A stretch of DNA of 35,134 bases from a virus. Shown piece after piece: positions 2,251 to 35,134 of the stretch. Location: IMG/VR virus record IMGVR_UViG_3300037264_002225, positions 1-35,134 of that record, one strand, 5' to 3'. How positions within the stretch are numbered: the first letter of the stretch is position 1; each line of letters begins with the position of its first letter. Position numbers and translations under genes: made by a program. The notes under the pieces were generated by a model. The model was not told where the DNA came from, searched no databases, and saw only the letters and a list, made by a program, of their open reading frames with translations.

Positions 2251-2820
2251 TTATCCAAGTTCCTTTAGTACATCTTCAAATGGGACGATCGTGTGGGTGT
2301 TTTCGGTTTGGACGCGCTCGCCATAAACTTTTGGAAGTAGCTTCGATAGATGCCATTTTCTGGTTTCTACTCTCAATCTAGACCTAGCAACATATTCGGA
2401 ATTCATCTTGATACCATGCTCGGTTTCAATCTCGTCCCAGGTGCTATCGTCAGCAATATCTACGATGTCTTCAGCTAAGACATCTGCCTGTTGTATCTTG
2501 GCTTTCTTATATTGGTCGGAAAATTCTTGATGGACAAAGCGCCATTCCATAATTGTATCATGGTGCGGAAACCACTCAATGCTCTTACAAAGCTTTTTTA
2601 AGCCATCAGGACTACATGCAACCTTTCGACAAATGGCTTCTCCAAGCTCTTTCGTATATTTGGAAGGTCTGCCAGCAGCGTTCTTTATTTTTGGCTGTAT
2701 AGATTCTTTTACCATAGCGTCAGCGACCGCCAGGGCCTCTATTTTCTTTTGTCTTTCTGACTTTTCTTTCTTAACTTTTACAGTTGTTTTGACATCTTCC
2801 TTACTTTTTCTTTTTACCAT
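2251..2820 (-). CDS. terS: Terminase small subunit
   Basis: DNA-recognition subunit of the packaging motor; such proteins form rings and bind the pac site. The 189 residues begin with a lysine-rich tail. Residues about 50-95 form the helix-turn-helix segment (GRPSKYTKELGEAICRKVA, then HDTIMEW), followed by a helical oligomerisation region and the typical VYGER near the C-terminus. The start overlaps the end of the upstream DnaJ-like zinc gene by 20 bases. The pac site of P22-like phages often lies in or near this gene; I cannot point to it here. Confidence 0.9.
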   Translation of the reverse strand: MVKRKSKEDVKTTVKVKKEKSERQKKIEALAVADAMVKESIQPKIKNAAGRPSKYTKELGEAICRKVACSPDGLKKLCKSIEWFPHHDTIMEWRFVHQEFSDQYKKAKIQQADVLAEDIVDIADDSTWDEIETEHGIKMNSEYVARSRLRVETRKWHLSKLLPKVYGERVQTENTHTIVPFEDVLKELG

Positions 2821-3061
2821 GTAAAACTTCCTTTTCTACTGGCTTGTGGGGATGCTTCTCTATTTCGACCGGCTCAACGCATTCGCTTGCAGGGAAGTCT
2901 TCATGAATTGTCATTGTTCCAGAAACTAGAACCTTAGGCTCATCAAGATCGATCGGCTTCAGCACCTTTCCAGTCCCTTCGCAATGATCGCAAGGGGAGT
3001 AAATCAGACCCATTTTCAATATCTCTTTAACGCCTCGACAGGCGGGACATCCTACTTTCAT
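2801..3061 (-). CDS. DnaJ-type zinc-knuckle protein, first gene of the late operon
   Basis: 86 residues. The N-terminal third has two DnaJ-like zinc motifs, CPACRG near residue 5 and CDHCEGTG near residue 24. The rest is acidic and ends in a lysine run. Small CxxCxG proteins are frequent in phages, usually with unknown role. A clear ribosome site (AAGGATTTTTAGT) precedes the ATG. It is the first gene after the divergent control region and its end overlaps the small terminase gene. Function is inferred only from the zinc motifs. Confidence 0.75.
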   Translation of the reverse strand: MKVGCPACRGVKEILKMGLIYSPCDHCEGTGKVLKPIDLDEPKVLVSGTMTIHEDFPASECVEPVEIEKHPHKPVEKEVLHGKKKK

Positions 3062-3088
3062 ACTAAAAATCCTTTTAAGTGTGTAGCT

Positions 3089-3119
3089 TCACTATAAGTG
3101 AGCACTATTATGAAATCAA
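3089..3119 (-). promoter_or_regulatory. Probable late promoter with operator over the -10 box
   Basis: On the minus strand TTGATT (3114-3119) and TATAGT (3091-3096) are 17 bases apart, directed at the gene starting at 3061. The palindrome TCACT-ATA-AGTGA (3089-3101) covers the -10 box. Its half-site ATAAGTGA recurs in the early promoter block at 3134-3163 and in that block's copy at 7208-7237. A shared repressor would fit. This is a sequence match only. Confidence 0.6.
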
Positions 3120-3133
3120 TTATTTTGAGAAAT

Positions 3134-3166
3134 AGTATTGACTTGTAGTGATAAGTGATGCATGAT
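3134..3166 (+). promoter_or_regulatory. Early promoter/operator block, copy 1
   Basis: TTGACT (3138-3143) and CATGAT (3161-3166), spacing 17, drive the gene at 3193. Bases 3134-3163 are repeated perfectly, in inverted orientation, at 7208-7237 before the RecE gene. Both copies are followed by GATTT, GATAACGTT and the same TAGGGGGAATTATG around the start codon. The block holds AGTGA-TA-AGTGA half-sites. Confidence 0.65.
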
Positions 3167-3192
3167 TTAAATAGATAACGTTAGGGGGAATT

Positions 3193-3489
3193 ATGTTTGT
3201 ACTTAAGTTAGAACAAATCAAAGACCATAAATATTTCACGCAGCCAATCTTCTTCAGCCTTGAAAAGGGTCTGGAAGGCAATTGGACATTCATAAAAGCT
3301 TTCGACTTCTATCTCGATATGCGCAATGACGCTTGTGAAGGCGCGTTCGGAATAGAGTCCTTTGACGAATTCATCGAAGACAATTTCTTGACCATGGATG
3401 GCAACCCTATAAAGGTTCCAGATGACTTTGACTTCATGGGATATGACTTTGAGGCTTATGAGTTTGGAGAAGAGCGGCATGATTGGTGA
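3193..3489 (+). CDS. Acidic early protein of unknown function
   Basis: 98 residues, strongly acidic, rich in Phe, Asp and Glu, with no cysteine motif beyond a single Cys. It has its own promoter and an excellent ribosome site (AGGGGGAATT before ATG), both shared with the RecE operon, so it is probably expressed early. Small acidic early proteins of phages often bind host enzymes or mimic DNA; that is only a possibility here. A minus-strand ORF at 3208-3480 is its shadow. No family recognised. Confidence 0.75.
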   Translation: MFVLKLEQIKDHKYFTQPIFFSLEKGLEGNWTFIKAFDFYLDMRNDACEGAFGIESFDEFIEDNFLTMDGNPIKVPDDFDFMGYDFEAYEFGEERHDW

Positions 3490-3553
3490 GGCGACAGTTC
3501 CAGTTTATATGGCGATTTTTTTAATTTCTTTGTACATTTTGTTAAAAAAGTAG
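3479..3553 (+). CDS. Candidate 24-residue membrane peptide
   Basis: Starts within the last codons of the acidic early gene (start ATG, upstream stop TGA six bases later) and has GGAG nine bases upstream. The peptide is one hydrophobic helix (PVYMAIFLISLYILL) with a KK end. Overlap and ribosome site suggest translational coupling. Very short, so confidence is limited. It could be a small membrane-active protein. Confidence 0.4.
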   Translation: MIGEATVPVYMAIFLISLYILLKK

Positions 3554-3562
3554 CTTAATATG

Positions 3563-3591
3563 TCGACGTTATCGTTATATTTTGATACAAT
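3563..3591 (+). promoter_or_regulatory. Promoter for the ribbon-helix-helix gene at 3628
   Basis: TCGACG (3563-3568) and TACAAT (3586-3591) with 17-base spacing, followed by GAGAGG upstream of the ATG at 3628. The -35 box lies next to CGTTATCG, whose complement shares GATAACG with the two early leaders. Confidence 0.5.
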
Positions 3592-3627
3592 TTTAATTTA
3601 TTTTAGCAATGAGAGGTCGGACCAGTC

Positions 3628-3861
3628 ATGATAACAACCGCCATATATACTGCTTGGTTGCAACTCAAGATTTCACCAGGAATGAAGGATGCCCTAGAAT
3701 TGCTGGCTTCTGATATCGGCGTAACGAAATCAGAGATGGTCCGTTTTTTGATTATAGATATGTGTGAGAAGAAAGGCGGTAAGTACTTACAAATGCTCGA
3801 TGTAAGCGAATTGCGACAAGTTAACCCCCTTAAGGCAGCGACCGAAGAAACTAAGAGTTAA
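3628..3861 (+). CDS. Ribbon-helix-helix regulator
   Basis: 77 residues. Residues about 10-49 (WLQLKISPGMKDALELLA, then VTKSEMVRFLIIDMCEKK) have the beta-strand, helix, turn, helix layout of Arc/CopG/MetJ-type DNA-binding dimers. A C-terminal tail of 25 residues has no recognised motif. It has its own promoter and ends four bases inside the convergent membrane-protein gene. Candidate repressor for the palindromic operators near 3.1 and 7.2 kb; which site it binds is unknown. Confidence 0.7.
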   Translation: MITTAIYTAWLQLKISPGMKDALELLASDIGVTKSEMVRFLIIDMCEKKGGKYLQMLDVSELRQVNPLKAATEETKS

Positions 3862-4043
3862 TCTGTCTCTTCTAGCCTCTCAATAAGCTCATGAGGTAGC
3901 CCAAGCTCATGCTCAGCTACCTCGGCCGAAACTTCTTCGACAATTTTATCGGCTTCTCTTTCTTTTGGGGTAAGCGCCAAGCTCCCAAGAGCCAAAGCGC
4001 ACACAAAAATAACTAAGGCAACTATCCCTATTACCAAATCCAT
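3858..4043 (-). CDS. Small single-pass membrane protein
   Basis: 61 residues: an N-terminal membrane helix (IGIVALVIFVCALALGSLAL, residues about 5-24) then an acidic, amphipathic tail. AGGAG precedes the ATG. It follows the basic-protein gene in the same transcription unit, with 11 bases between. Topology suggests the tail in the cytoplasm or periplasm; the sequence does not settle which. Possibly involved in lysis or exclusion, but nothing shows it. Confidence 0.6.
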   Translation of the reverse strand: MDLVIGIVALVIFVCALALGSLALTPKEREADKIVEEVSAEVAEHELGLPHELIERLEETD

Positions 4044-4054
4044 TTTTGCTTCTC

Positions 4055-4360
4055 CTATGTTTTCATATGACCCTTCATCATTGGCTTGCGGGTAGCAACA
4101 GACTTTTTGGGGGCTTTTGAGCCCGGGGGAACTTTGCTTAGAACTTCCATTCCACCTTTGTTGCTCTTTGGGAATTCTTGTAAGCCTATTTTGGCTTTAG
4201 TAGTTTTTGGGGTTTTGAAAGTAGTCTTAGGATTAGGCTGCCCCATATCATAGAGGGTTTTTTTCTTCTTGACCTTTGGCTCAGCTTTGGGTTTCTTTCC
4301 GCCTTTGGTTGGCATAGATGGTTTCTTAGGTTTTGGGTTCATCGGATTCTTGATGCTCAT
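4055..4360 (-). CDS. Very basic Lys/Pro-rich protein
   Basis: 101 residues of low complexity, dominated by Lys and Pro, with few acidic residues (KPKKPSMPTKGGKKPK, then VKKKK). It has an excellent ribosome site (AAGGAGGGATT) and a good promoter, so it is expressed. Composition resembles histone-like tails and suggests nucleic-acid binding and intrinsic disorder; that is inference. No family recognised. It forms a two-gene unit with the membrane protein downstream. Confidence 0.65.
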   Translation of the reverse strand: MSIKNPMNPKPKKPSMPTKGGKKPKAEPKVKKKKTLYDMGQPNPKTTFKTPKTTKAKIGLQEFPKSNKGGMEVLSKVPPGSKAPKKSVATRKPMMKGHMKT

Positions 4361-4387
4361 AATCCCTCCTTGGGTTAGCTATGTCTC

Positions 4388-4417
4388 ATTCTAGAACATA
4401 TGTTAGGATTAACTCAA
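4388..4417 (-). promoter_or_regulatory. Promoter for the basic protein gene
   Basis: Minus-strand TTGAGT (4412-4417) and TAGAAT (4388-4393) with 18-base spacing, upstream of the ATG at 4360. The nearest CATAGATGCTCA repeat lies just upstream of the -35 box. Confidence 0.5.
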
Positions 4418-4424
4418 TTAATAT

Positions 4425-4490
4425 CCATAGATGCTCATCCAGGTCATAGATGCTCAAGCTTTATGTGTGAGCAAGTATGAGCATCTATGG
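4425..4490. repeat. Three CATAGATGCTCA repeats, two direct and one inverted
   Basis: Copies at 4426-4437 and 4445-4456 (direct) and 4478-4489 (inverted). The first and third match over 14 bases (4425-4438 and 4477-4490). They lie between divergent genes, so an operator cluster for both directions is the simplest reading. A role as iterons is possible but the replication gene is 6 kb away. Confidence 0.7.
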
Positions 4491-4508
4491 GTTTACTGGT
4501 AGCACTTT

Positions 4509-4523
4509 GTCGGAATTTCCGAC
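4509..4523. promoter_or_regulatory. Palindrome GTCGGAA-T-TTCCGAC
   Basis: Perfect 7-base arms around one base, 23 bases before the plus-strand start at 4547. Its symmetry suggests a dimeric regulator site. It does not match the LexA box. Confidence 0.45.
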
Positions 4524-4546
4524 GAACTTAAGTAAGGAGAAATCAA

Positions 4547-4744
4547 ATGATGACTTTAGCGGACTTTGCCAAAAACCATAAAAGCAAACTTATCACGGTC
4601 GTCATCCTAACGGTGCTAGGAGTGGGATCTGTTTTTTTCTTTGGCCAAGATAATGATATTGAAGAGCTATCCGAAATGGGCATCAAGGCCGAAACTGGGT
4701 TAGATGTTGATTTAAGCCCGAAGAGTCCTGAAGGTAAAAAATAA
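4547..4744 (+). CDS. Small single-pass membrane protein
   Basis: 65 residues. After a short basic N-terminus (NHKSKL) comes a membrane helix at about 15-33 (ITVVILTVLGVGSVFFF), then an acidic tail. AAGGAG precedes the ATG. It is alone on the plus strand and convergent with the end of the recombination operon, the two stops abutting. The palindrome and repeat cluster just upstream suggest tight control. Topology would fit a holin-like or exclusion protein; no family recognised. Confidence 0.6.
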   Translation: MMTLADFAKNHKSKLITVVILTVLGVGSVFFFGQDNDIEELSEMGIKAETGLDVDLSPKSPEGKK

Positions 4745-4960
4745 TCAATGCTTGCCTTCTTCTTTAACTAGGGACGCAATCTTCTCGTCTATTTCCGTTA
4801 CTTTGGCCAAGGTTAAATTAAAAACAAGTTTTTGAAGTTTAAGAATCGCAACCTTAAGTGTTTCTACTTCACGCTTTAATGAATCACATCGCGTATTTAT
4901 ATTTACGACAGCCATGTTCTGAATATCTAAAAGCTTTGCAATTTCGTCGTTAATTTCCAT
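4745..4960 (-). CDS. Small coiled-coil protein, end of recombination operon
   Basis: About 71 residues, helical, with heptad-like Leu/Ile/Val spacing (VETLKVAILKLQKLVFNLTL). I start it at the ATG preceded by AGAGGG, inside the last codons of the upstream gene; an ATG 12 bases earlier is possible. Last gene of the RecE-RecT unit. Function unknown. Confidence 0.6.
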   Translation of the reverse strand: MEINDEIAKLLDIQNMAVVNINTRCDSLKREVETLKVAILKLQKLVFNLTLAKVTEIDEKIASLVKEEGKH

Positions 4961-5147
4961 GTTCCCTCTCATGTTTTTCTATATCCTGCAGCATTTGCTC
5001 CCTAAGAAGGGTGCTCATCGCTGTATTAAGTTTGTCAATTGAGCGTGACAATTCAACAATTATTTCGCTTTGTTGCATGAAAGCTTCAACAAGACCTTCT
5101 ATTTTATTGTTAAGATATTTAATCTCTGGAGTGTCATTAAGTAACAT
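4950..5147 (-). CDS. Small coiled-coil protein of the recombination operon
   Basis: 65 residues, helical throughout (LNNKIEGLVEAFMQQSEIIVEL and on), and ending in a charged tail. The ATG is embedded in the stop of the upstream gene (TGATG), with GGAG nine bases before it. A TTG three bases upstream is less likely. Coupled translation with its neighbours is clear. Function unknown. Confidence 0.6.
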   Translation of the reverse strand: MLLNDTPEIKYLNNKIEGLVEAFMQQSEIIVELSRSIDKLNTAMSTLLREQMLQDIEKHEREHGN

Positions 5148-5458
5148 CAATTCTTCTCCGCTTTCTTTTGCTCTTGGTCAAGATTCTTCAAAAATAAACA
5201 ATGCTTCTTAACTAGGTCAAGCTTAATTGCTGCAATCTCATCAATTATCATTGGTAGAATTTCAATGAAATTGAAGTCGGGATCTTCTCTTAACAAACTG
5301 AACCGTCGTACTGAAAAATCTTTGAAAGCATTAATGACTGTGTTGAAATCATTATGCAGCACATCCCAAAACCTATTATGGATTCCCATAAGGTCCCTGT
5401 TCTCCTGAGAGAAAAAATCCCTCAGGAGTTCGTTAACTTTTTGTTCTTTGGTTTTCAT
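5147..5458 (-). CDS. Helical protein of the recombination operon
   Basis: 103 residues, predicted mostly helical, with a Lys/Glu-rich C-terminus. GGATG precedes the ATG. It lies nine bases after the RecT gene and overlaps the next gene by its stop. Co-transcription with RecE/RecT suggests an accessory to replication or recombination. No known domain recognised, and it does not resemble known single-strand binding proteins. Confidence 0.65.
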   Translation of the reverse strand: MKTKEQKVNELLRDFFSQENRDLMGIHNRFWDVLHNDFNTVINAFKDFSVRRFSLLREDPDFNFIEILPMIIDEIAAIKLDLVKKHCLFLKNLDQEQKKAEKN

Positions 5459-5467
5459 TTTACATCC

Positions 5468-6337
5468 TTACCAGTTATAGCCTTCTTCCTTCTCGGCTTC
5501 TGTGAGCTCTTCGACAACTGCAGTCTCACCAAATACTTTATTGATGTCTAGCTCAGCCACTTTTGCATCTTTCTTCTGCTTGGCTGCCTTGCGGTCTAGC
5601 ATCATACATACCGAGACCCATTGGTTCCTTGTAATTTCATCAAGCGATTCTATCTTAAGATACTGACAAATATCCACCTCTTCGGTGCTGGTGTCCGCCA
5701 TCTTAGAGCGTAGCAATACAAATTGGTCATGGTCTGGCGATACCGGTTCAGATTGTCCCTCAACAATAGTTCCGTTGAATCGGCTATAGTCCGTTCTTTC
5801 GCTCGGCAAGTCCTGGGCTTCTTCGGCCAGGTACATACCTCTTAGAACATCGCCGAAAGCATCCCTCAGAGCAAAAGCTCGCGCTCGCATCTGAAGCATT
5901 CTTTTAGGGTAGGTTGTCCAAGGTCCTTCTTTCTTCCAAAGTTTGGCTGTTTCTGCGTCTGCTTTAGAGAAATGCCTAATAACCTCTGGCTGAAGTTTTC
6001 TTTTAACAATGCAGGTGGCCTTCATGGTAGCTTCGTCAAGTCTTTCTTCAATCATTTCAAACTCGCGACAATTGCGACAGATTGCCAGCATCGCGTCGCC
6101 CCAGACAGAGGGTCGACCGTTAATGACGGCGATATTCTGAAGCGCCTGCATCGGCTTAAGTCCTAGCTCTTGGCCCATTTGTAACGCAACCAGAATATCA
6201 CCGGGACGATTTTGCATGCCTTTTGGGGCAAACGAAGAAACGGCGATCATCTCACTCACTTTCATCGCTTGTTCGATTGTGTTTAGGACCATGAAGCCCT
6301 GGTTTGGTTCGGTGACCATGATATCTTGATTAGACAT
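5468..6337 (-). CDS. recT: RecT-family single-strand annealing protein
   Basis: Anneals complementary single strands exposed by the partner exonuclease, for phage recombination and concatemer formation. 289 residues from the ATG at 6337. The family core is clear: GLKPMQALQNIAVINGRPSV (about 68-87), WGDAMLA, then YPKRMLQMRARAFALRDAF near residue 145 and MYLAEEA after it. I chose this ATG, which has AAAGGAG upstream, over one 21 bases earlier. It overlaps the end of the exonuclease gene by eight bases, the usual RecE-RecT pairing. Confidence 0.9.
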   Translation of the reverse strand: MSNQDIMVTEPNQGFMVLNTIEQAMKVSEMIAVSSFAPKGMQNRPGDILVALQMGQELGLKPMQALQNIAVINGRPSVWGDAMLAICRNCREFEMIEERLDEATMKATCIVKRKLQPEVIRHFSKADAETAKLWKKEGPWTTYPKRMLQMRARAFALRDAFGDVLRGMYLAEEAQDLPSERTDYSRFNGTIVEGQSEPVSPDHDQFVLLRSKMADTSTEEVDICQYLKIESLDEITRNQWVSVCMMLDRKAAKQKKDAKVAELDINKVFGETAVVEELTEAEKEEGYNW

Positions 6338-7160
6338 TGTCTTCTCCTTTCTTCGCATAATTAGGTAAGCTTAACAGTTGAAACTTTTCATCGTAGCCGG
6401 GCCAGTGACTAGCCTTTAGGCACTCGCTGTAAGTGGCTGCACCGTCTAGATACTCGCGACGACCTTGCTCGATCGACTCTTCGTCCAATGTAAAGCAAGC
6501 TGTCAAGAATGGCGCTTTCTTCTCTACTACAAAGAATGCAAAGAACCTCTTGATGCCGTCAATCTGATACAGGGCATCAATCTGCATGGCTGCTTGACGG
6601 TGATAGCCGTAGGCATAAATAGAGCGACCAAACGCTGGGATTGAGTCTGTTGTCTTCAAATCAATGATGATTTGGTCATTAAAGAAGTCAGGGCGAGCTC
6701 TTAGGCGCGTATTATATATCCCGCTGTCCCAATAAATAGACTGCTCTACTTTTCCTTCTTTGACCTTATCCCACATTGAATTGGTACGAACGGCTCTAGC
6801 GATGTCTTGTATGTCAAACCAATCTTGGGACCTAATGATTTGGCGACCCTGGGCCACATCTTCATATGTGGCATAAAGCTCTTTGCCGACCTTGGTTGTT
6901 AAGTTTACTTTCTCAGGCATAGGTAAAAAATTTTCGTGAAACTTGTCTGGCTCAAGACAGAGCATATGCACGGCTCTGCCCAGCATAAATTTGTCTTTGG
7001 TATTTTTATTGTCTTCTACCATATTGCCGACGTCGGCAATATACTCATGCCAAAACCGCTTTGGGCAATCCATTATTAGGGATATCCCAGTTGAAGATAT
7101 GCCTTCCTCTGCGTGATATTCATCGATGTTGACGTTGTCATATATACCTGGCTCTCTCAT
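6330..7160 (-). CDS. recE: RecE-like PD-(D/E)XK exonuclease
   Basis: Processive 5'-3' exonuclease that makes 3' single-stranded tails for RecT. 276 residues. Motifs of the RecE/exonuclease VIII family: H65 in GRAVH, E139 in KVEQSIYW, D158 in RARPDFF, and D167-x-K169 in IIIDLKTTD. The E. coli RecE is much longer, but its C-terminal nuclease alone is about this size. First gene of a five-gene unit with the duplicated early promoter/operator upstream and AGGGGG before the ATG, so probably expressed early. Confidence 0.88.
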   Translation of the reverse strand: MREPGIYDNVNIDEYHAEEGISSTGISLIMDCPKRFWHEYIADVGNMVEDNKNTKDKFMLGRAVHMLCLEPDKFHENFLPMPEKVNLTTKVGKELYATYEDVAQGRQIIRSQDWFDIQDIARAVRTNSMWDKVKEGKVEQSIYWDSGIYNTRLRARPDFFNDQIIIDLKTTDSIPAFGRSIYAYGYHRQAAMQIDALYQIDGIKRFFAFFVVEKKAPFLTACFTLDEESIEQGRREYLDGAATYSECLKASHWPGYDEKFQLLSLPNYAKKGEDNV

Positions 7161-7193
7161 AATTCCCCCTAGACTTTTGTTGATTGAAACGTT

Positions 7194-7209
7194 ATCCTGA
7201 AATCAGGAT
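7194..7209. promoter_or_regulatory. Palindrome ATCCTGA-AA-TCAGGAT
   Basis: Perfect 7-base arms, lying over the -10 region of the RecE promoter and 45 bases before a divergent ribbon-helix-helix gene. Likely operator for autoregulation by that protein, by analogy with Arc/CopG systems. The copy of the promoter block at 3134 lacks this palindrome. Confidence 0.5.
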
Positions 7210-7237
7210 GCATCACTTATCACTACAAGTCAATACT
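7205..7237 (-). promoter_or_regulatory. Early promoter/operator block, copy 2 (RecE operon)
   Basis: Minus-strand TTGACT (7228-7233) and CATCCT (7205-7210), spacing 17. Bases 7208-7237 are the perfect inverted copy of 3134-3163. The -10 box is poor, so activation or a different -10 is possible. Confidence 0.55.
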
Positions 7238-7253
7238 TTTTGGAGAGAAATAC

Positions 7254-7424
7254 ATGGCAAACACAAAAAAAGATCCCACAATTAAGTTCTACGTCTCAAT
7301 TGATAAAAAAATTCATGATAAGCTTGAGCAGTATGCTACTGAAAATGGTTCTCGTGTAAGTACAACCGTTAGAAAAATAATCATCGAGTTTCTTAATAAT
7401 TTAGAACGCAAAAAAGATAAATAA
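7254..7424 (+). CDS. Ribbon-helix-helix regulator (56 aa)
   Basis: Short plus-strand gene with GGAGAG seven bases before ATG. Sequence TIKFYVSIDKKIHDKLEQYA, then a turn and STTVRKIIIEFLNNLE, matches the strand-helix-turn-helix layout of Arc/CopG proteins, with a basic N- and C-terminus. It is divergent from the RecE operon, and a perfect palindrome lies between them. That is the usual layout for a small repressor controlling both directions. Exact target not shown. Confidence 0.75.
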   Translation: MANTKKDPTIKFYVSIDKKIHDKLEQYATENGSRVSTTVRKIIIEFLNNLERKKDK

Positions 7425-7503
7425 CCAGTATTTATTCGCGGTAAAACTGATAAAATAGAAATCCCATTTGGGGTAAAGGATTGCCTCATGAAAGGGGCAG
7501 GGA

Positions 7504-11796: not shown

Positions 11797-12522
11797 TCAA
11801 TAAGTCTGTCTGCATGTTCGAGAACAGAATTTTCTTTGCTTGCATGGATGGCCTATAACTTCTTTCTGACATTTTAAGCATGTGTATGTCACCCTTTTCC
11901 TTTTCGACATGCACTTGCATTCGGCGCTACAAAACTTTCTTATCTTGTTTCCTCTATTGGTATGAATAAATTTATTTTTGCAAAATCCACAAACGCTATG
12001 TTTTTTCTTAACTCTATGCTCTGCAAAACATTTTCGATTACAAAAAATTGTTTGCTTTCCTTTTGGGCTTTTAATTAAACCGTCGCAGGTCTTGCAATAT
12101 ATTTTTATTGGGTTGGAAATGGCTATAATTGCGCATTTATTACTGCAGTATTTTCTTTTTCTTATTGGATAGGATGATATTTCTTTGGAGCAAACAAAAC
12201 ATTTAATAAGAACTTTATCAACCCAACTTCTCCCCCTGCTATTAATTCTTTGGGTTCTTCTGTCAGCCCACCTTACATTCTCCGGAACATAATCTGAATT
12301 GTTATCTATCCTATCCAAAGAAAGGCTTTTGGAAGGCCTTTCTCCCACGTCTTCCAAGAAATGCATAAAGCTGCCTTTCCATCTATCGCAAACCCGAATG
12401 CCTCGAGCACCATAATTTTTCCAAGATGGATGTTTTTGATTGGTGCATCTTTGAATCATTGCAACCCAGGCAATATATTCTGGCGTGCCAGACCTTGAAT
12501 GCTTTACCATTAACCTAGTCAT
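11797..12522 (-). CDS. HNH/AP2-type endonuclease with four zinc knuckles
   Basis: 241 residues. Residues about 10-95 (GTPEYIAWVAMIQRCTN, NYGARGIRVCDRW, then LDRIDNNSDYVPENVRW) match the HNH-like nucleases often fused to AP2 DNA-binding domains in phages. The rest is four tandem C2-C2 zinc knuckles, each opening with C-x-x-C and closing with C-x-x-x-C (near YCSNKC, FCNRKC, FCSAEC, FCSRTC). AGGAG precedes ATG. It sits alone between a hairpin and the late terminator. Probably a selfish homing endonuclease. Confidence 0.8.
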   Translation of the reverse strand: MTRLMVKHSRSGTPEYIAWVAMIQRCTNQKHPSWKNYGARGIRVCDRWKGSFMHFLEDVGERPSKSLSLDRIDNNSDYVPENVRWADRRTQRINSRGRSWVDKVLIKCFVCSKEISSYPIRKRKYCSNKCAIIAISNPIKIYCKTCDGLIKSPKGKQTIFCNRKCFAEHRVKKKHSVCGFCKNKFIHTNRGNKIRKFCSAECKCMSKRKRVTYTCLKCQKEVIGHPCKQRKFCSRTCRQTY

Positions 12523-13047: not shown

Positions 13048-13202
13048 TTTCGCTGCCCCCTTAAACTGAATAAATATGTTTTATTACAGTTAGAACACTC
13101 AAAGCAATCAAAAGTTTCTTTTAGCGAGTGATTTGGTTTACGCGTAAGTGCGGTTTTACAATGGCAGCAATAATCTTTGTTTATTTTTTCCGAATAAATC
13201 AT
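13017..13202 (-). CDS. Zinc-ribbon protein (61 aa)
   Basis: Two knuckles, CCHC at residues 12-15 and CSNC near 36, make a small zinc ribbon with a basic surface. Its ATG overlaps the RusA stop, and its end runs 31 bases into the lysozyme-like gene. Likely nucleic-acid binding; function unknown. Confidence 0.65.
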   Translation of the reverse strand: MIYSEKINKDYCCHCKTALTRKPNHSLKETFDCFECSNCNKTYLFSLRGQRKCTTQTNSEK

Positions 13203-13564
13203 ATAATTTCTTTTATAGTAATTAGAAGCTTGCCTTTTGGAACGTTATCGCAACGTTTAACAAAGATTTGGTCAATTTGAGAATCGTTTTCAAACAGTCC
13301 TGCGAACTGCAGCGAATCAATCGATACTTTTAAAACATTATCTAAATCTCTGGCTCTTCTGTCTGGCGGATAAGCAAAAATATCAAGCGATATTCTTCCT
13401 AAAATCTTTGGACGTTTCCAAATAAACGCGAGGCCGAGTATCAATTGCTTGTACGCTCTAGCCTCGCGGGATATTAGAATCATTGTGCCAACATGTCGCC
13501 AGTATTTATTAGCGCTTGGTGGCCAGGGTAACTCTATCGGCTGCGTCTGATTACATGCAGCCAG
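13199..13564 (-). CDS. rusA: RusA-type Holliday junction resolvase (start uncertain)
   Basis: Cuts Holliday junctions and branched replication products before packaging. Conserved motifs: PPDRRARDLDN with the catalytic acids, then LKVSIDSLQFAGLFENDSQI. The only in-frame ATG (13483) would give 94 residues and lose the conserved N-terminal segment, which is readable upstream in the same frame as LPWPPSANKYWRH (about 13495-13531). The frame is open to 13579 without ATG, GTG or TTG. I extend to the CTG at 13564 as the best remaining codon. A frameshift from the upstream ORF or a sequence error is possible. Confidence 0.7.
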   Translation of the reverse strand: MAACNQTQPIELPWPPSANKYWRHVGTMILISREARAYKQLILGLAFIWKRPKILGRISLDIFAYPPDRRARDLDNVLKVSIDSLQFAGLFENDSQIDQIFVKRCDNVPKGKLLITIKEII

Positions 13565-21050: not shown

Positions 21051-21323
21051 TTATTTTATAAGATGTGAAAATTTTCTATAAATGTCACTGTCATTTCTTT
21101 TTCCAATTAAATCGATATGTAATATATTATCTAAATGATATATTATTCTATATTCTCCGCTATCTACACGATAATATCCTTCGCAGCCCTTTAATTTGCT
21201 ACTATCGTTTGTAAAAGGATTGTTTCCGAGCTCCAGAATTTTAGAATCTATCTGCAGGAAATGCTTGCATGGTAGCTTTTCCAGAAACTTTCTATTTCTC
21301 TTGTCTATTAGTATTTTTAGCAA
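21051..21323 (-). CDS. RelE/ParE-family toxin
   Basis: 90 residues. The C-terminal half has the family pattern YYRVDSGEYRIIYHLDN, then LHIDLIGKRNDSDIYR. RelE enzymes cut mRNA on the ribosome, ParE members act on gyrase; the residues seen do not separate the two with certainty. It starts 32 bases inside the antitoxin gene, so translation is coupled. It ends two bases from a convergent gene. Likely for phage or plasmid-like maintenance or exclusion of rivals. Confidence 0.85.
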   Translation of the reverse strand: MLKILIDKRNRKFLEKLPCKHFLQIDSKILELGNNPFTNDSSKLKGCEGYYRVDSGEYRIIYHLDNILHIDLIGKRNDSDIYRKFSHLIK

Positions 21324-21570
21324 GATTTAAATTCCTTTTTCTAAGATCGTTCATAAACTTTTCACTTTCCTCAACTGTCCAATCTCCTTCTGCAGAAGAT
21401 TCTTTGGCTTTCATTCCCCAATGAATATCTTCTAAATATTCAAATAACTCGGGAGAAATAATTACAGCAAAAGGTCGTCCTTGTTTGTTAATTTCGACAG
21501 GACTTTTTTGCGCCTGATCAAGCAAGAAGCCAAACTTTTCACGGGCTTCGCTGGCAGTATATGTTTGCAT
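21292..21570 (-). CDS. Phd/YefM-family antitoxin
   Basis: 92 residues. N-terminus MQTYTASEAREKFGFLLDQA is the typical Phd/YefM DNA-binding start, followed by GRPFAVIISPELFEYLE. The C-terminal acidic/basic tail would wrap the toxin. I start at the ATG with GAGG five bases before it, not at the GTG six bases upstream. Upstream lies a repeated TACATTTTGTACA operator, so autorepression is expected. Confidence 0.85.
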   Translation of the reverse strand: MQTYTASEAREKFGFLLDQAQKSPVEINKQGRPFAVIISPELFEYLEDIHWGMKAKESSAEGDWTVEESEKFMNDLRKRNLNLAKNTNRQEK

Positions 21571-21591
21571 ATGCACCTCAGTAAAATATTT

Positions 21592-24674: not shown

Positions 24675-24968
24675 TTATGGATAGGCTGTTGTAGACACTC
24701 GTCTCAACGCCCCTGCAACTTTAACAACTAAAACTTCTGGCGCTCCGTCAGTTACATACCACAAGCTGCCGTTAGGCATGAAAACTGCGGGCGTGGCTAA
24801 GGTTCCGTCTGGCCATTCGACTGCATTAACCGTAAGGTTAGCATTTGTAATCTGTGGAACGGTCCAACCATTATTGCTCAAGCAGTCACCAATCGTTTGA
24901 TTTAGCTCTTCTTGGTAGTTCTCTTGGGCAAATTCTCCTTGGCCTCTTAAATACGGTGGTACGTCCAT
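24675..24968 (-). CDS. Small tail-machine protein
   Basis: 97 residues from the ATG that overlaps the HNH stop (TAATG); a start eight codons earlier would lie in the HNH gene. DVPPYLRGQGEFAQ and then NQTIGDCLSNNGWTVPQ are followed by a beta domain (WPDGTLATPAVFMPNGSLWYV). Position after the gp10-like gene suggests a tail-machine or fibre-attachment part. It does not look like the long tail needle gp26. Confidence 0.6.
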   Translation of the reverse strand: MDVPPYLRGQGEFAQENYQEELNQTIGDCLSNNGWTVPQITNANLTVNAVEWPDGTLATPAVFMPNGSLWYVTDGAPEVLVVKVAGALRRVSTTAYP

Positions 24969-25711
24969 TATCGTTCCTTGACATGCTTCCAAGTCTTACC
25001 CTTCATTATATTATATATAGCGTTATTTCCTATGTTATATTTTTTAGAAAGCACCTTATAATATATTCCAGATATCAACTCAGATTTAATATTTGAAACT
25101 ATTTCTTCTGTGAGCTTTGCCTTGTTTGTTCTGGTGCCCTGAGGTTGTCTATTTTTAGATACTTTATCAATATTGTTATCTCTATTGGTTCCTAAAAATA
25201 AATGATCAGGATTAACGCAAGAAGGAATATCGCATTTATGTAATACGCATAATCCTTTAGGTATATCACCCTTAAATAATTCATATGAGTATCTATGGGC
25301 CCTATTGCCTTTTCTTTTTTTATGTGGCAAATGAATCATTCCATAATCATTTTTATCGACTGATTTTATCCATAAAAAGCATCCAGATTCAGTGATTGGC
25401 ATATAGTTATTGCAGAATGTTTCTTTAGTAAGATTTTTATTGGCTCGCTTAATAAATGAAGTATCACCATAATTAATCTGCCGCGTATAATGTTTGCTGC
25501 ATAGGAATTTTGCAATTACTTCATGTGGGCAACCGTCTACTTGACATGGGGAATTCTTGACAAACCCATAAGGTAGCATTCCGCTTTCTTCTCGAATTTT
25601 AGCTCTCTTTAATTTCATTTTAAGTAACTTGCAAGACTTGCAATAACCGCTGCTATGATAACTTGGGCCTTTATCTAACCCGCAATTACTACAAAATATG
25701 CTCCTAGTCAT
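24968..25711 (-). CDS. HNH homing endonuclease (between gp10-like and tail gene)
   Basis: 247 residues from the ATG at 25711 (AGGAATC upstream); an ATG at 25783 overlapping the gp10-like stop is the alternative. Order: four-Cys zinc ribbon at the N-terminus, a CQVDGCPHEVIAKFLCSKHY knuckle, then the HNH core (RAHRYSYELFKGDI, VLHKCDIPSCVNPDHLFLG) and a C-terminal helix-turn-helix (LSKKYNIGNNAIYNIMKGKTW). Very similar in layout to the nuclease at 32390. A selfish gene inserted between structural genes. Confidence 0.85.
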   Translation of the reverse strand: MTRSIFCSNCGLDKGPSYHSSGYCKSCKLLKMKLKRAKIREESGMLPYGFVKNSPCQVDGCPHEVIAKFLCSKHYTRQINYGDTSFIKRANKNLTKETFCNNYMPITESGCFLWIKSVDKNDYGMIHLPHKKRKGNRAHRYSYELFKGDIPKGLCVLHKCDIPSCVNPDHLFLGTNRDNNIDKVSKNRQPQGTRTNKAKLTEEIVSNIKSELISGIYYKVLSKKYNIGNNAIYNIMKGKTWKHVKER

Positions 25712-25779
25712 TATAGATTCCTCATTACTACATAAGGTATAATTATAACGTTCTAGGTCATTTTGTACAAGCACTCTAT

Positions 25780-27396
25780 TCATCCTCTAACTTCCAGAAT
25801 CCCATTACTTACGACGAACCGTGTAAGCCCCCAGAATCTAAGTTTAAGTGTAATAGAATTACAGCCACCTAGTCGATTCCAGTTAATCATGTTTTTTCTG
25901 AATCCAATAGGATTTAAGGTTTGTCCTACATAGTTGCTCCAGGTATTTCCGCCATCAATTGATATGGCGAGGTCTACCCTTTGCTCATACGGGATTACAA
26001 AGTTCGGCGCATTGAGCCAAGCCTGTGAGGCGACGATCGGCGTCCCAGATTCTGTTAGTAATGGATAGTCGCCTGGAACCGTAAAGTCTTCCGATATGAT
26101 AGGAATGACATCATCAATTGAAATCCCATTTACACCAGGGTCATAACCTTGTTCCATCGTGAATACAAATCGATTGACAATAAAGTTATCAGAAGTATCA
26201 AGCATCATGTTGTCGGTAATTCGAACCCGCTGCATATCAAATATTAATAATGGGTCTTGCGGATTAGCGCTTGGTAAGTTTTCATTTATGTTTGTAATCT
26301 GTGTGCTCGTTTTGTAAAGAGAGCCGTTGTTTAGAGATACGAAATAAATTGTGTTATTAAAGAACGCGTAGTTTCTAGCTGGATGGTAATTTAAATTCTG
26401 GTCGCTTAAATGAAAGAACTTCTTGGTATTGAAGTCATACATCAACGTAAGATTATCAGCAGGATTTGTGAACGTAAGTTGATATAAAACATGTCCGTCT
26501 ATTCTAACGAACATTGCTGTACTTTGTTCTGGGAATTGAATTGTACTTAAAAGAAAGTCGATACCATCCGATGATATTCTTTCAAAACCTTGTTTTGAAA
26601 ATACCATGATAGATGGTGAATTGCTTTCATTAATTCCTAACCATGCCACGTATTCATCGCTTGCATTAATAGTAGTGACACTAGCGCAACCATAGTCAAC
26701 ACCAACAGCATTAATCTTTCGATAGTTTTGTACTCCCCCGATTTGTTGATGTATTTCGCAAACTGTTGTACCAAACACAATTACGTTAGCCGATTGTCCT
26801 GGGATTCTAAGAACAGCAATAGCAAAGTCAGGCTTTGTTTGTAAGGCAAGTTGCGTTTGCTGAACAATTGTTGTTGGGGTAGCGAATCGATATGCGTACC
26901 ATGCTGCACCATTACCCGTTCTGTCACCGTTGCCAAACAAGAAAAATGTGTTGTGATAACTTACGAAATTAGGTATTAACCCACCGCCTAAAGCTTGGAT
27001 AGTTAAATTTGCAGGCAAGCTCCAGTTATAAATGTAAGCATTAACACCATCGACAATACAAATCTGAGAGTTTAAATTTTCATCAATTGTTACTTCGCCA
27101 AAACTGGTTGCCAATGTCCCTATATTAGTAATGGCAAGATTCGGGTCCAATCTAAAGACAAGGGCATTTACTACCACAAGCAGGAAGTTTCCGCGAGTGG
27201 ATTTGAATATACCCCTACCCTGGCCTGCTGGGGCTAAGTTCAATACACGCTGCCAACCGGCAGTATTAACTAACCAATTGTCAGAAATAAACATATTATA
27301 AGTTTTAGAATTAGAGATTTTGGCGTATCTGCCAAAGGTAGAGCTGCCGACAATATCGACGGGAATGGGTTCTGCTTGAGGCGTTTTCTTACCCAC
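25780..27396 (-). CDS. gp10-like packaged DNA stabilisation protein
   Basis: 538 residues, similar in length to P22 gp10 (472), with the N-terminal part IVGSSTFGRYAKISNSKTYNMFIS and an all-beta pattern typical of the tail hub that plugs the portal after packaging. The start is GTG with AGGGG seven bases before it, overlapping the endonuclease stop (TAGTG). Its stop touches the next nuclease ORF. Function from P22: joins gp4 to the tail needle and keeps DNA in. Confidence 0.75.
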   Translation of the reverse strand: MGKKTPQAEPIPVDIVGSSTFGRYAKISNSKTYNMFISDNWLVNTAGWQRVLNLAPAGQGRGIFKSTRGNFLLVVVNALVFRLDPNLAITNIGTLATSFGEVTIDENLNSQICIVDGVNAYIYNWSLPANLTIQALGGGLIPNFVSYHNTFFLFGNGDRTGNGAAWYAYRFATPTTIVQQTQLALQTKPDFAIAVLRIPGQSANVIVFGTTVCEIHQQIGGVQNYRKINAVGVDYGCASVTTINASDEYVAWLGINESNSPSIMVFSKQGFERISSDGIDFLLSTIQFPEQSTAMFVRIDGHVLYQLTFTNPADNLTLMYDFNTKKFFHLSDQNLNYHPARNYAFFNNTIYFVSLNNGSLYKTSTQITNINENLPSANPQDPLLIFDMQRVRITDNMMLDTSDNFIVNRFVFTMEQGYDPGVNGISIDDVIPIISEDFTVPGDYPLLTESGTPIVASQAWLNAPNFVIPYEQRVDLAISIDGGNTWSNYVGQTLNPIGFRKNMINWNRLGGCNSITLKLRFWGLTRFVVSNGILEVRG

Positions 27397-28031
27397 TATA
27401 TTCCCCTCGAATATTGGAGATATATAATTGCGCTTTCTAAGATGTCAACAGAATCACGAGCCATACCAATCATTGCATTACACTTGTGACACAATAATCC
27501 TCTGACTTTTTTTGTTTCGTGACAATGATCGACCACCAATCTCATGATGTTCTCCGAATTTGGTGCGCGTCTAGTTTCTTCTTCGTTACATATTTTGCAT
27601 TTATGATTTTGTTCTTCGAACATTTTGTCGTAAATGTCTTGAGTAATTCCGTGCATCCGGATGATTTCGCGCGTAATAAGGCCCTCTTTCCCATAGGTTT
27701 GTAATCTTTTTTGATATTCATTTTTATATCTTTTTTCCCATTTTTCAGGATTACTTTTTCTATCGAGAGCAAGCTTCTCATTAAACCATTCTCGATTATT
27801 GTTTCTTTTAGTGTTAGCAGAAGCTCTATGGCACTGTTTACATCTACCATTTGATTTTATGTCCTCTGGCTTTAATCTTCCGTGGGTTTTGCATATGATG
27901 CCGTCCTTCCATGCTCGTTCATTAATGCACTTCTTGCATCTTAGAGTTACGCCAGATACATTCCTAAGGGCCTCTCTCAAAACTGTATCTTTCTCTTCTA
28001 AAGGGCCATGAACCTTGCAAGTTTTAATCAT
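27396..28031 (-). CDS. Recombination endonuclease VII-like nuclease
   Basis: 211 residues. C-terminal half has the T4 endonuclease VII family core: CKICNEEET, then RLVVDHCHETKKVRGLLC and HKCNAMIGMARDSVDILESAI. The N-terminal half carries several C-x-x-C zinc motifs (CKKC, CKQC). In phages such genes serve junction resolution or act as homing nucleases. Here it lies exactly between the gp4-like and gp10-like genes, sharing one base with the latter, and a RusA gene is present too, so homing is the likelier role. Confidence 0.85.
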   Translation of the reverse strand: MIKTCKVHGPLEEKDTVLREALRNVSGVTLRCKKCINERAWKDGIICKTHGRLKPEDIKSNGRCKQCHRASANTKRNNNREWFNEKLALDRKSNPEKWEKRYKNEYQKRLQTYGKEGLITREIIRMHGITQDIYDKMFEEQNHKCKICNEEETRRAPNSENIMRLVVDHCHETKKVRGLLCHKCNAMIGMARDSVDILESAIIYLQYSRGI

Positions 28032-32389: not shown

Positions 32390-33001
32390 TCAGGCATTGT
32401 TCACCTTTAAATGTTTCCAGCCTTTTCCACTACGTGCTCTACATATGGTTGAATGTGAAACATTATATTTTTCGCACATCAACTTTAAATCGCCATAACT
32501 ATAGTCTTTATTTCGAATATCAATAACATCCTGCTCTGTTAGCTTTACCGCTCTATTCCGAATCCCGATAGCATGACGCTTTTTGGCTCTCATATCATTA
32601 AAGTTTTCAATTGCCGTACCGAGAAACAAATGATCCGGGTTAATACAGGAAGGAACATCACATTTATGGCATACAAAATATCCGGGCTCTATTTTACCTT
32701 TAAATAGTTCATATGAAAATCTGTGAGCTGCATAACGCTTGTTGTCCCATGTCAATACTCCGTAACCTGATGGAATGCGGTTCTTTTTCCAAATCCAACA
32801 ACCTGTCTCCATTATTATTTCATAGCTATCTTCAAACCTAGAAATAATGTCGGGATATTTTCTAGTGCATGAGCTACCGCGATTTGGAGGGTTAACTATT
32901 TCAGGGTCTCCATACCTTCTTTTTCTAGTGTAATGTTTCACGCATAGGCCCAAGCCTTTTAGCTTTCCATCACACTGTGGCATTGAGCACTTATTATTCA
33001 T
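32390..33001 (-). CDS. HNH homing endonuclease (after portal)
   Basis: 203 residues from the ATG at 33001, which overlaps the portal stop; a GTG start 30 bases earlier is possible. Layout: CSMPQCDGKLKGLGLCVKHY knuckle, then GCWIWKK and the HNH core (AAHRFSYELFKGKI, VCHKCDVPSCINPDHLFLG), and a C-terminal helix-turn-helix (LMCEKYNVSHSTICRARSG). Close relative of the nuclease at 24968 over the core. Inserted between portal and scaffold, where P22 has none. Confidence 0.85.
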   Translation of the reverse strand: MNNKCSMPQCDGKLKGLGLCVKHYTRKRRYGDPEIVNPPNRGSSCTRKYPDIISRFEDSYEIIMETGCWIWKKNRIPSGYGVLTWDNKRYAAHRFSYELFKGKIEPGYFVCHKCDVPSCINPDHLFLGTAIENFNDMRAKKRHAIGIRNRAVKLTEQDVIDIRNKDYSYGDLKLMCEKYNVSHSTICRARSGKGWKHLKVNNA

Positions 33002-35111
33002 CCTTCCCCGCGTTGTCTTTGTTTCTTTCACTGTGGTGTTTTGCTAAGTCTATTGCTGTCTCGATCGCAGTCCGCGCATTTTCGCTGTCGATTCTCTCTT
33101 GGTCGATAGCAACTTTAGCGTTTTTTACTTCAATATCGTTAAGAATCTGCAATATTTGCATATCCACTTTTTCTTTCTCTACCGCAACTTTAGCCGCTTC
33201 AATAGCAAGCTTACCTTCAGATTCGCGAGCCTTCTGCTCAACTTTCTCATGCTCGACCATGACAAGCCCAATATTGGCCTGAGCTGTTTGCTCCTCAGGC
33301 GTTGGCTTCCCAGCTTTCTCTTGCTGTTGCTTCTGTAAGCCTTGCATGAATTGAGCTGCCATGACCTTCAGGGTTTCGATATTGCGAATATCCAGGTTAT
33401 CGAGGATGATTTCAAGCCCCATCGTATTAATGAACTGTGCGAATAGAGGGGAAGCCTGCATCATCTTGATGATTTGGTCTAGAGCTACTTGCTTTTGAAT
33501 AGCCGTATTGACTCCAGCTTCGACCTCAACGTTCAATTGATTTGAGTTATAGCCAACCTGAACGCTCTCGGGGTGCTTTGGGTTATTGATAATTTTGTAA
33601 TCGCGCTTTCCGTCCATGGTCATAACTGGAATTGAGCGTGGGGTAACGTAGTACTTGGGTATCAAGTCCACCACTACCTGACAGATTCTATTTAGGCCCT
33701 TAATGTAATTAACTAGATAAGGGGTTGAGGCGGCACTAGAGAAGATCGCTCCCTGGGTGACTGCTTTACCTGAGACGTCCTGGTCGTTGGTGCCAAGCGC
33801 TCCTTCATATGAGCCCAGGATTGCTTGAGTTACGCGGTCTGACCCCAGGAATGTGCTCTCAACAATTGGAGGGGTTGGGGTTCTTTGGATTTCCATTGGA
33901 GGAGTTAAAGGCACGTTCGGGTTTCCATCTAGGAAAGCATTGTAGAGCAATACGTCCTGCTGTTGGACGTTTCTATAGGCATCCTTGTAGTCATCAGGAA
34001 CAGACTCAACGCTGACTTTCCACTTATGCATGACCATATTTTCAATTTCAGCAGCCACTGTTTGACCTGCGAAGTTCTTGAGCTTTTGAATGCCCTTGGC
34101 TTGATAAGCGTAGGGGCGAGTCATTTGTGATGAGCTTGAATTGTCTGAATCCCTAATCTCAACTGAGTTACCATCAACAAATATCAAAGGCAAGTATTTA
34201 AAGTTAGTAGAGGTATGGGATAGAATTTTGGTTTCGCAGAGCTGAATGCGATCGATACTTACAAGCTCTGTCATACGCTCTTCAATAATGATGGGTGGCT
34301 GCTCAATGAAGCCACGCTTATTCCATTCCTCTAAAAGTTCTTTGAAGTGAGCTTTTGTTACAACGTGACCCGTTGATAACTTAACAATCTTTGTTTTCTT
34401 TTTTACTTTCTCAAAGAAGTCACAGATAAGCAAAACATCTTCTTGTTCATTCATGTAGGACCAATTGAATCCACCTAGACCTCGAGCGAACATCATTCCC
34501 TCTAATGCGTCAGGGCCAAACTCAAGTTCAAATTCTTCTTTAGTTCTTGGATAGAGTTGAAAGCAAAACCCGCCGTCACCTTTATGTGACTCGCGCGCAA
34601 GCGGGTCAAACCCCGTTAATGTTGGGTCGAATACGCGCTGCACTAAAATCTTTTGGTCAAATGACATGTCATTTATGTAATCGGTAAATACTTCTAGAAC
34701 CGAATAACCACCAGCAGTAATGTCTCTGTAAACATTGTATTGAAGGCCATCATTAGCAGTGTTGTTTAAGATTTCACGCAAGTGAGATTCAATCACGCCA
34801 ATCATATCAATGAATTCTTTATTCAAATCTTGAATACGAACGCTGTCAGATGCTCGAACCTTTATGCCGGGCTCGTGCTTTGCAAACTCACCACATAAAC
34901 GATTAAGCATTGATTCAATCACGTTGAATTCAAGCGTAGGTTTATTTAATACTTGTAGCTTTGTAATATCTTCGTTTGTAAGAGATGTAGAAAATACAAA
35001 GCGCATAAATTCTGTATAGCGGTCTGCATTCTTTCTAAAGTAAGTGTAAGCAGTTTCAACTTTTTCTTTTATTTCTCGAAGGCGACTAGTGTGCTTGCTT
35101 GCAAGTTCCAT
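32994..35111 (-). CDS. Portal protein, P22 type
   Basis: 705 residues against 725 in P22. Forms the 12-mer ring for DNA entry and exit. N-terminal helical segment (YTEFMRFVFSTSLTNEDI), the core with EIENMVMHKWKVSVESVPDD, YEGALGTNDQDVSGKAV and TPYLVNYIKGLNRI, and a C-terminal coiled coil at about 600-700 (VEHEKVEQKARESEGKLAIE), which matches the helical barrel of P22. GGAGATAAGCAA precedes ATG, which lies four bases after the terminase stop in the circular genome. Confidence 0.93.
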   Translation of the reverse strand: MELASKHTSRLREIKEKVETAYTYFRKNADRYTEFMRFVFSTSLTNEDITKLQVLNKPTLEFNVIESMLNRLCGEFAKHEPGIKVRASDSVRIQDLNKEFIDMIGVIESHLREILNNTANDGLQYNVYRDITAGGYSVLEVFTDYINDMSFDQKILVQRVFDPTLTGFDPLARESHKGDGGFCFQLYPRTKEEFELEFGPDALEGMMFARGLGGFNWSYMNEQEDVLLICDFFEKVKKKTKIVKLSTGHVVTKAHFKELLEEWNKRGFIEQPPIIIEERMTELVSIDRIQLCETKILSHTSTNFKYLPLIFVDGNSVEIRDSDNSSSSQMTRPYAYQAKGIQKLKNFAGQTVAAEIENMVMHKWKVSVESVPDDYKDAYRNVQQQDVLLYNAFLDGNPNVPLTPPMEIQRTPTPPIVESTFLGSDRVTQAILGSYEGALGTNDQDVSGKAVTQGAIFSSAASTPYLVNYIKGLNRICQVVVDLIPKYYVTPRSIPVMTMDGKRDYKIINNPKHPESVQVGYNSNQLNVEVEAGVNTAIQKQVALDQIIKMMQASPLFAQFINTMGLEIILDNLDIRNIETLKVMAAQFMQGLQKQQQEKAGKPTPEEQTAQANIGLVMVEHEKVEQKARESEGKLAIEAAKVAVEKEKVDMQILQILNDIEVKNAKVAIDQERIDSENARTAIETAIDLAKHHSERNKDNAGKDE

Positions 35112-35134
35112 TTGCTTATCTCCATGAGTTCGTT
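35008..35134. repeat. Terminal direct repeat, copy 2 (circular contig overlap)
   Basis: Exact second copy of bases 1-127. The complete portal gene starts inside this copy, while the large terminase gene is complete only at the left end. Removing one copy joins terminase stop and portal start in their natural order. Confidence 0.95.

Follow-up and report, generated by a model that had tools for sequence, protein, structure and literature searches.

A duplicated promoter-like block before two putative early units, and a related dyad at the terminase promoter, in a phage encoding RecE- and RecT-like proteins

Genes surrounding the repeated block

The window analyzed here, which is the entire 35,134-base IMG/VR record, begins and ends with the same 127 bases. 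This exact terminal direct repeat (1-127 and 35008-35134) indicates that the genome is complete and circularly assembled, with a length of about 35.0 kb; 127 bp is also a k-mer length that assemblers commonly use. The minus strand near the left end carries the genes for the terminase large subunit (109-1662; relatives with up to 73% identity) and small subunit (2251-2820; PF20901, E = 2.5e-29), as well as the first gene of the late operon (2801-3061), which encodes a CxxC, zinc-finger-like protein with a weak DnaJ zinc-domain match and precedes terminase in 11 loci. An acidic protein of 98 amino acids (pI 4.1, charge -15) is encoded on the plus strand at 3193-3489. No relatives of this protein were found in viral contigs or phage records, and because its AlphaFold model, generated without an alignment, was too poor to use (pLDDT 45), we make no claim that it is a DNA mimic. 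A RecT-like annealing protein (5468-6358; PF03837, E = 2.6e-6) and a RecE-like exonuclease (6330-7160; PF12684, E = 9e-29, and PF12705) are encoded on the minus strand. Gammaproteobacteria were the main source of related terminases from bacterial genomes and of the best matches among phage records, which makes sigma-70 boxes meaningful in this genome. Alignment of RecE in bacterial genomes returned no relative.

Among the structural genes, a YefM/Phd antitoxin (PF02604, E = 9.5e-11) is found beside a ParE/RelE-type toxin candidate at 21051-21576, the toxin match (PF05016, E = 0.0013) falling under the cut-off. Several open reading frames that resemble HNH-type endonucleases are dispersed among the structural genes at 11797-12522, 24968-25783, 27396-28031, and 32390-33031.

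The repeated promoter-like element and its candidate operator

A 30-bp block at 3134-3163 is an exact inverted repeat of 7208-7237. This recurrence, the starting point of the original prediction, was confirmed and is well above the longest exact inverted matches in dinucleotide shuffles (13-18 bp, n = 10). Copy A, on the plus strand, comprises a -35 box (TTGACT), the whole 17-nt spacer with two AGTGAT heptads, and the beginning of the -10 box; copy B is the same element on the minus strand, facing RecE. The corresponding promoter candidates are early promoter A (TTGACT-17-CATGAT, 3138-3166, plus strand) and early promoter B (TTGACT-17-CATCCT, 7205-7233, minus strand), which rank 50 and 180, respectively, when all 351,030 placements in the genome are given a simple sigma-70 score. 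Both -10 boxes are weak, and a consensus scan of the region gave 13 promoter-like sites against 10.9 expected, so that single promoter calls are themselves weak. The two copies share the -35 box and are identical at 17/17 spacer positions but differ in their -10 boxes, a pattern for which the best reading is an operator embedded in a promoter, beyond mere promoter strength. Exact searches of IMG/VR with stretches of 26 and 20 bases taken from the block returned no match.

The two units also share their ribosome site and start codon, TAGGGGGAATTATG, which is repeated exactly at 3182-3195 (plus strand) and 7158-7171 (minus strand); this element is 14 nt long, and no other site in the window matches it with fewer than 2 mismatches. 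Between the block and TAGGGGGAATTATG, the copies differ in both bases and length. Of the further leader elements that had been proposed, GATTT and GATAACGTT are indeed present in both leaders, but GATAACGTT was ruled out as a specific shared element, as GATAACGTY has 5 exact sites genome-wide. The search for RNA structure or an attenuator in the leaders gave folding no better than shuffles and no Rfam match.

Within the spacer, the candidate operator core consists of two contiguous heptads, AGTGATA-AGTGATG at copy A (3147-3160, plus strand; reverse complement CATCACT-TATCACT) and the equivalent GTGAT pair at copy B (7211-7224, minus strand). These are the only two GTGAT pairs in the genome. 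A wider definition, AGTGA/TCACT pairs spaced 5-9 bp apart, recovered three sites genome-wide where 0.19 were expected, and these coincide with the late, early A, and early B promoters; the half-site length and spacing range were picked post hoc, after the block had been seen, and the counts are guides rather than formal tests. The genome holds 37 AGTGA/TCACT half-sites in total, roughly half the number expected from base composition, the expectation itself being a rough estimate. Placement of the two early units under one operator-like element, as originally envisaged, is supported, and a shared operator on both early promoters appears likely to us. This estimate, like those given below for RHH binding and three-promoter control, is a judgement and not a computed value.

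Two other explanations bear on the duplication itself. The block may be merely a strong early promoter and leader, repeated to serve the host RNA polymerase right after infection with no phage repressor involved. The TTGACT -35 box, the 17-bp spacing, and the identical ribosome site in both copies would all suit such a role, yet spacers are normally unconserved and here the spacer is identical while the -10 box differs. Tandem heptads in that spacer, and half-site pairs on the late promoter too, also argue against a plain promoter, and we regard this explanation as improbable. Alternatively, the copies may be the footprint of a recent duplication or recombination event, or else the arms of a 4-kb segment that can invert, and the two units would not be controlled jointly. 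Perfect inverted 30-bp arms around a 4-kb segment, and a block that is single-copy in relatives, are what would be expected of it. However, the copies are identical only in the promoter spacer and the ribosome site, and what lies between has diverged in sequence and length, as expected for selected elements. Moreover, because both copies face inward, an inversion would still leave the same promoters before both units. An invertible element would pair its inverted repeats with an invertase gene, and no tyrosine or serine recombinase was found in the complete genome with the integrase and recombinase profiles PF00589 and PF00239. We consider a duplication or inversion footprint very unlikely.

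A promoter-embedded operator, our preferred reading of the block, may extend to a third site. The terminase operon is preceded by a late promoter candidate (TTGATT-17-TATAGT, 3091-3119, minus strand) that ranks 9 of the 351,030 placements, and its -10 box is covered by the dyad TCACTATAAGTGA at 3089-3101, a candidate operator. The dyad reads TCACT-ATA-AGTGA, which bears out the proposal of a back-to-back late promoter with a related dyad over its -10 box. Compared as TCACTTATAGTGA with TGACTTGTAGTGA inside the block, it matches at 11/13 positions, and no other 37-mers in the genome came within 2 mismatches. The proposed tie between early block and late dyad therefore exists, but ATAAGTGA is a poorer link than TGACTTGTAGTGA.

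Candidate regulators and the RecE locus in relatives

Two small plus-strand genes near the block, whose products had been put forward for binding tests on the palindromes, encode candidate RHH-type regulators. The evidence is good for the gene at 7254-7424, whose 56-residue product (the 7254 protein) matches the Arc-like family phrog_582 (E = 3.6e-6) over nearly its full length; it also matches phrog_876 and phrog_3180. Its Pfam RHH matches fall under the gathering score, and its best PDB sequence matches are small RHH proteins, all of them weak. In an alignment with Arc, its strand (contact) residues differ from those of Arc. The evidence is weak for the CopG-like RHH candidate at 3628-3861 (the 3628 protein; phrog_7325, E = 7.5e-4), whose AlphaFold model without an alignment was too low in confidence to use (pLDDT 57). 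Neither protein has relatives in phage records, and neither matched the Omega repressor family in a Pfam scan up to E = 1.

From its profile match and its position divergent from RecE, the Arc-like 7254 protein is the likeliest binder of the block, and we lean toward an RHH protein binding at the shared sites. The binder could instead be the 3628 protein or a host protein, in which case the 7254 protein might be limited to a local 16-bp palindrome, ATCCTGATTTCAGGAT, that lies over the -10 box of promoter B (7194-7209) and is missing at promoter A. This palindrome, found at one promoter only, would fit such a division of labor; it is weak when taken alone, since about 6% of shuffled regions score equally. 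The location of 3628 downstream of promoter A, together with its weak CopG-like match, points in the same direction. On the other hand, the promoter candidate of 3628 itself (TCGACG-17-TACAAT with a TG, 3563-3591, plus strand, rank 32) has no AGTGA pair, 3628 is the weaker RHH call, and the conserved position beside RecE belongs to 7254. A different reader of the shared sites is consequently an unlikely alternative in our estimate. The 7254 gene has its own weak promoter candidate (TAGACT-17-TATCCT, 7170-7198, plus strand, rank 294), which overlaps promoter B.

We compared the RecE locus across relatives: each of the six loci with >50% RecE identity (the window, L003, L032, L094, L095, and L096) has an RHH-like gene beside RecE. 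It is divergent from RecE in five of these and co-directional in L096, where it is weakly scored. Apart from the RHH pattern, the RHH-like proteins have little sequence in common, and several of the matches are weak. In L003, L094, L095, and L032, RecE is preceded by TTGACA/T with 16-17 spacing in the same place as promoter B, and the divergent gene starts 10-20 nt from the -35 box. A perfect 7+7 dyad, ATGTCAG/CTGACAT, lies over the RecE promoter of L032; dyads over the relatives' RecE promoters are suggestive only, as about 6% of shuffled regions are as good. Three more distant RecE loci (L015, L017, and L021) likewise have a divergent gene for a small DNA-binding protein upstream of RecE, but there it looks like a Cro/YdaS-type helix-turn-helix gene, an assignment made by eye and not by profile, whereas the clade of the window carries an RHH gene.

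Co-conservation of the block in related phages, which had been suggested as a check, was not found: the duplication is missing from all five relatives in which the RecE locus is present. This makes the second copy specific to this lineage, and the orphan status of the acidic protein fits a unit that was added under an existing early operator. Operator words common to early and late promoters were not found in the relatives either. In L054, a terminase relative, we observed a 30-nt exact inverted repeat, GAAATCGCCTTCATATCCGCGATTGGCAGT, at 7399-7428 and 13191-13220, nearly 6 kb apart.

Proposed temporal control of early and late genes

The original prediction described a compact switch without a CI/Cro pair. 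The second half of that description is borne out, given that HTH_3 and Peptidase_S24 models had no match in the complete genome. A switch in the lysis-lysogeny sense is nevertheless unlikely, because integrase was not found here or, with PF00589, in any of 11 related records, a set that includes fragments. The components of a CI/Cro lysogeny switch, namely an HTH repressor pair with S24 and an integrase, were thus not detected. With no integrase, serine recombinase, HTH_3, or S24 match found, an early/late temporal regulator is likelier than a lysogeny switch.

Under the mechanism we propose, each early copy would be a sigma-70 promoter whose spacer serves as a repressor operator made up of a contiguous pair of 7-bp heptads. 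The Arc-like 7254 protein would most likely bind this operator as cooperative dimers, shutting off both the RecE/RecT operon and, 4 kb away, the unit of the acidic protein; it probably represses its own gene too. It may also occupy the terminase promoter, at the degenerate inverted half-sites that cover its -10 box, where it would hold the late genes back or tune their timing. In this apparently integrase-free phage, the 7254 protein would act as a temporal regulator and not as a lysogeny switch. We judge the chances of the whole explanation, early shut-off plus late hold-back by the 7254 protein on heptad operators, to be evenly balanced. Control of all three promoters by one regulator has at best an even chance and perhaps slightly less. 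The most tentative step is the extension of shared control to the late promoter, of which the relatives give no sign. A bolder version, in which the 7254 protein is the sole transcriptional timer, silencing two early units and holding the late promoter via the same half-sites, and took the place of a Cro-type regulator at the RecE locus as the group evolved, seems doubtful to us.

Regulation of this kind has precedents. Arc of phage P22 acts at operators overlapping promoters and, like the 7254 protein, is a small phage RHH protein. P22, however, is temperate and carries Arc in immI, whereas here the site is duplicated on the RecE and orphan units and is built of AGTGA half-sites. The omega protein of pSM19035, also of the RHH class, recognizes contiguous direct ATCAC heptads (WATCACW) over the promoters of several units (PMC9499535, PMC4803016). 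The CATCACT-TATCACT pair in both early promoters, unique in the genome, resembles these sites, but there are only two heptads per site, no match to an Omega-family protein, no partition system, and no detectable similarity between the 7254 protein and omega. F55 of SSV1 and SvtR of SIRV1 are RHH repressors of several viral promoters including their own; F55 binds tandem repeats of early promoters, and SvtR also acts on a structural-gene promoter (PMC5569661). Those viruses and their promoters are archaeal, and F55 maintains lysogeny, in contrast to this phage with no detected integrase. The regulation would therefore be of a known kind (Arc, F55, SvtR, omega) in a new arrangement, a modest variation on viral gene timing.

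If correct, the arrangement would give a minimal timing circuit for early and late genes, open to experimental test, in which a single tiny regulator acts at three mapped operators. It would also provide a natural case of a change in regulator class at one locus, RHH versus Cro-like, in which the divergent gene arrangement was retained. The orphan acidic protein, co-controlled with recombination, would become a candidate early host-takeover or anti-defence factor.

A separate repeat cluster was observed between the divergent genes at 4055-4360 (minus strand) and 4547-4744 (plus strand). It spans 4425-4490 and contains CATAGATGCTCA twice in direct orientation (4426 and 4445) and once inverted (4477-4490); it is iteron- or operator-like and different from the 30-bp block.
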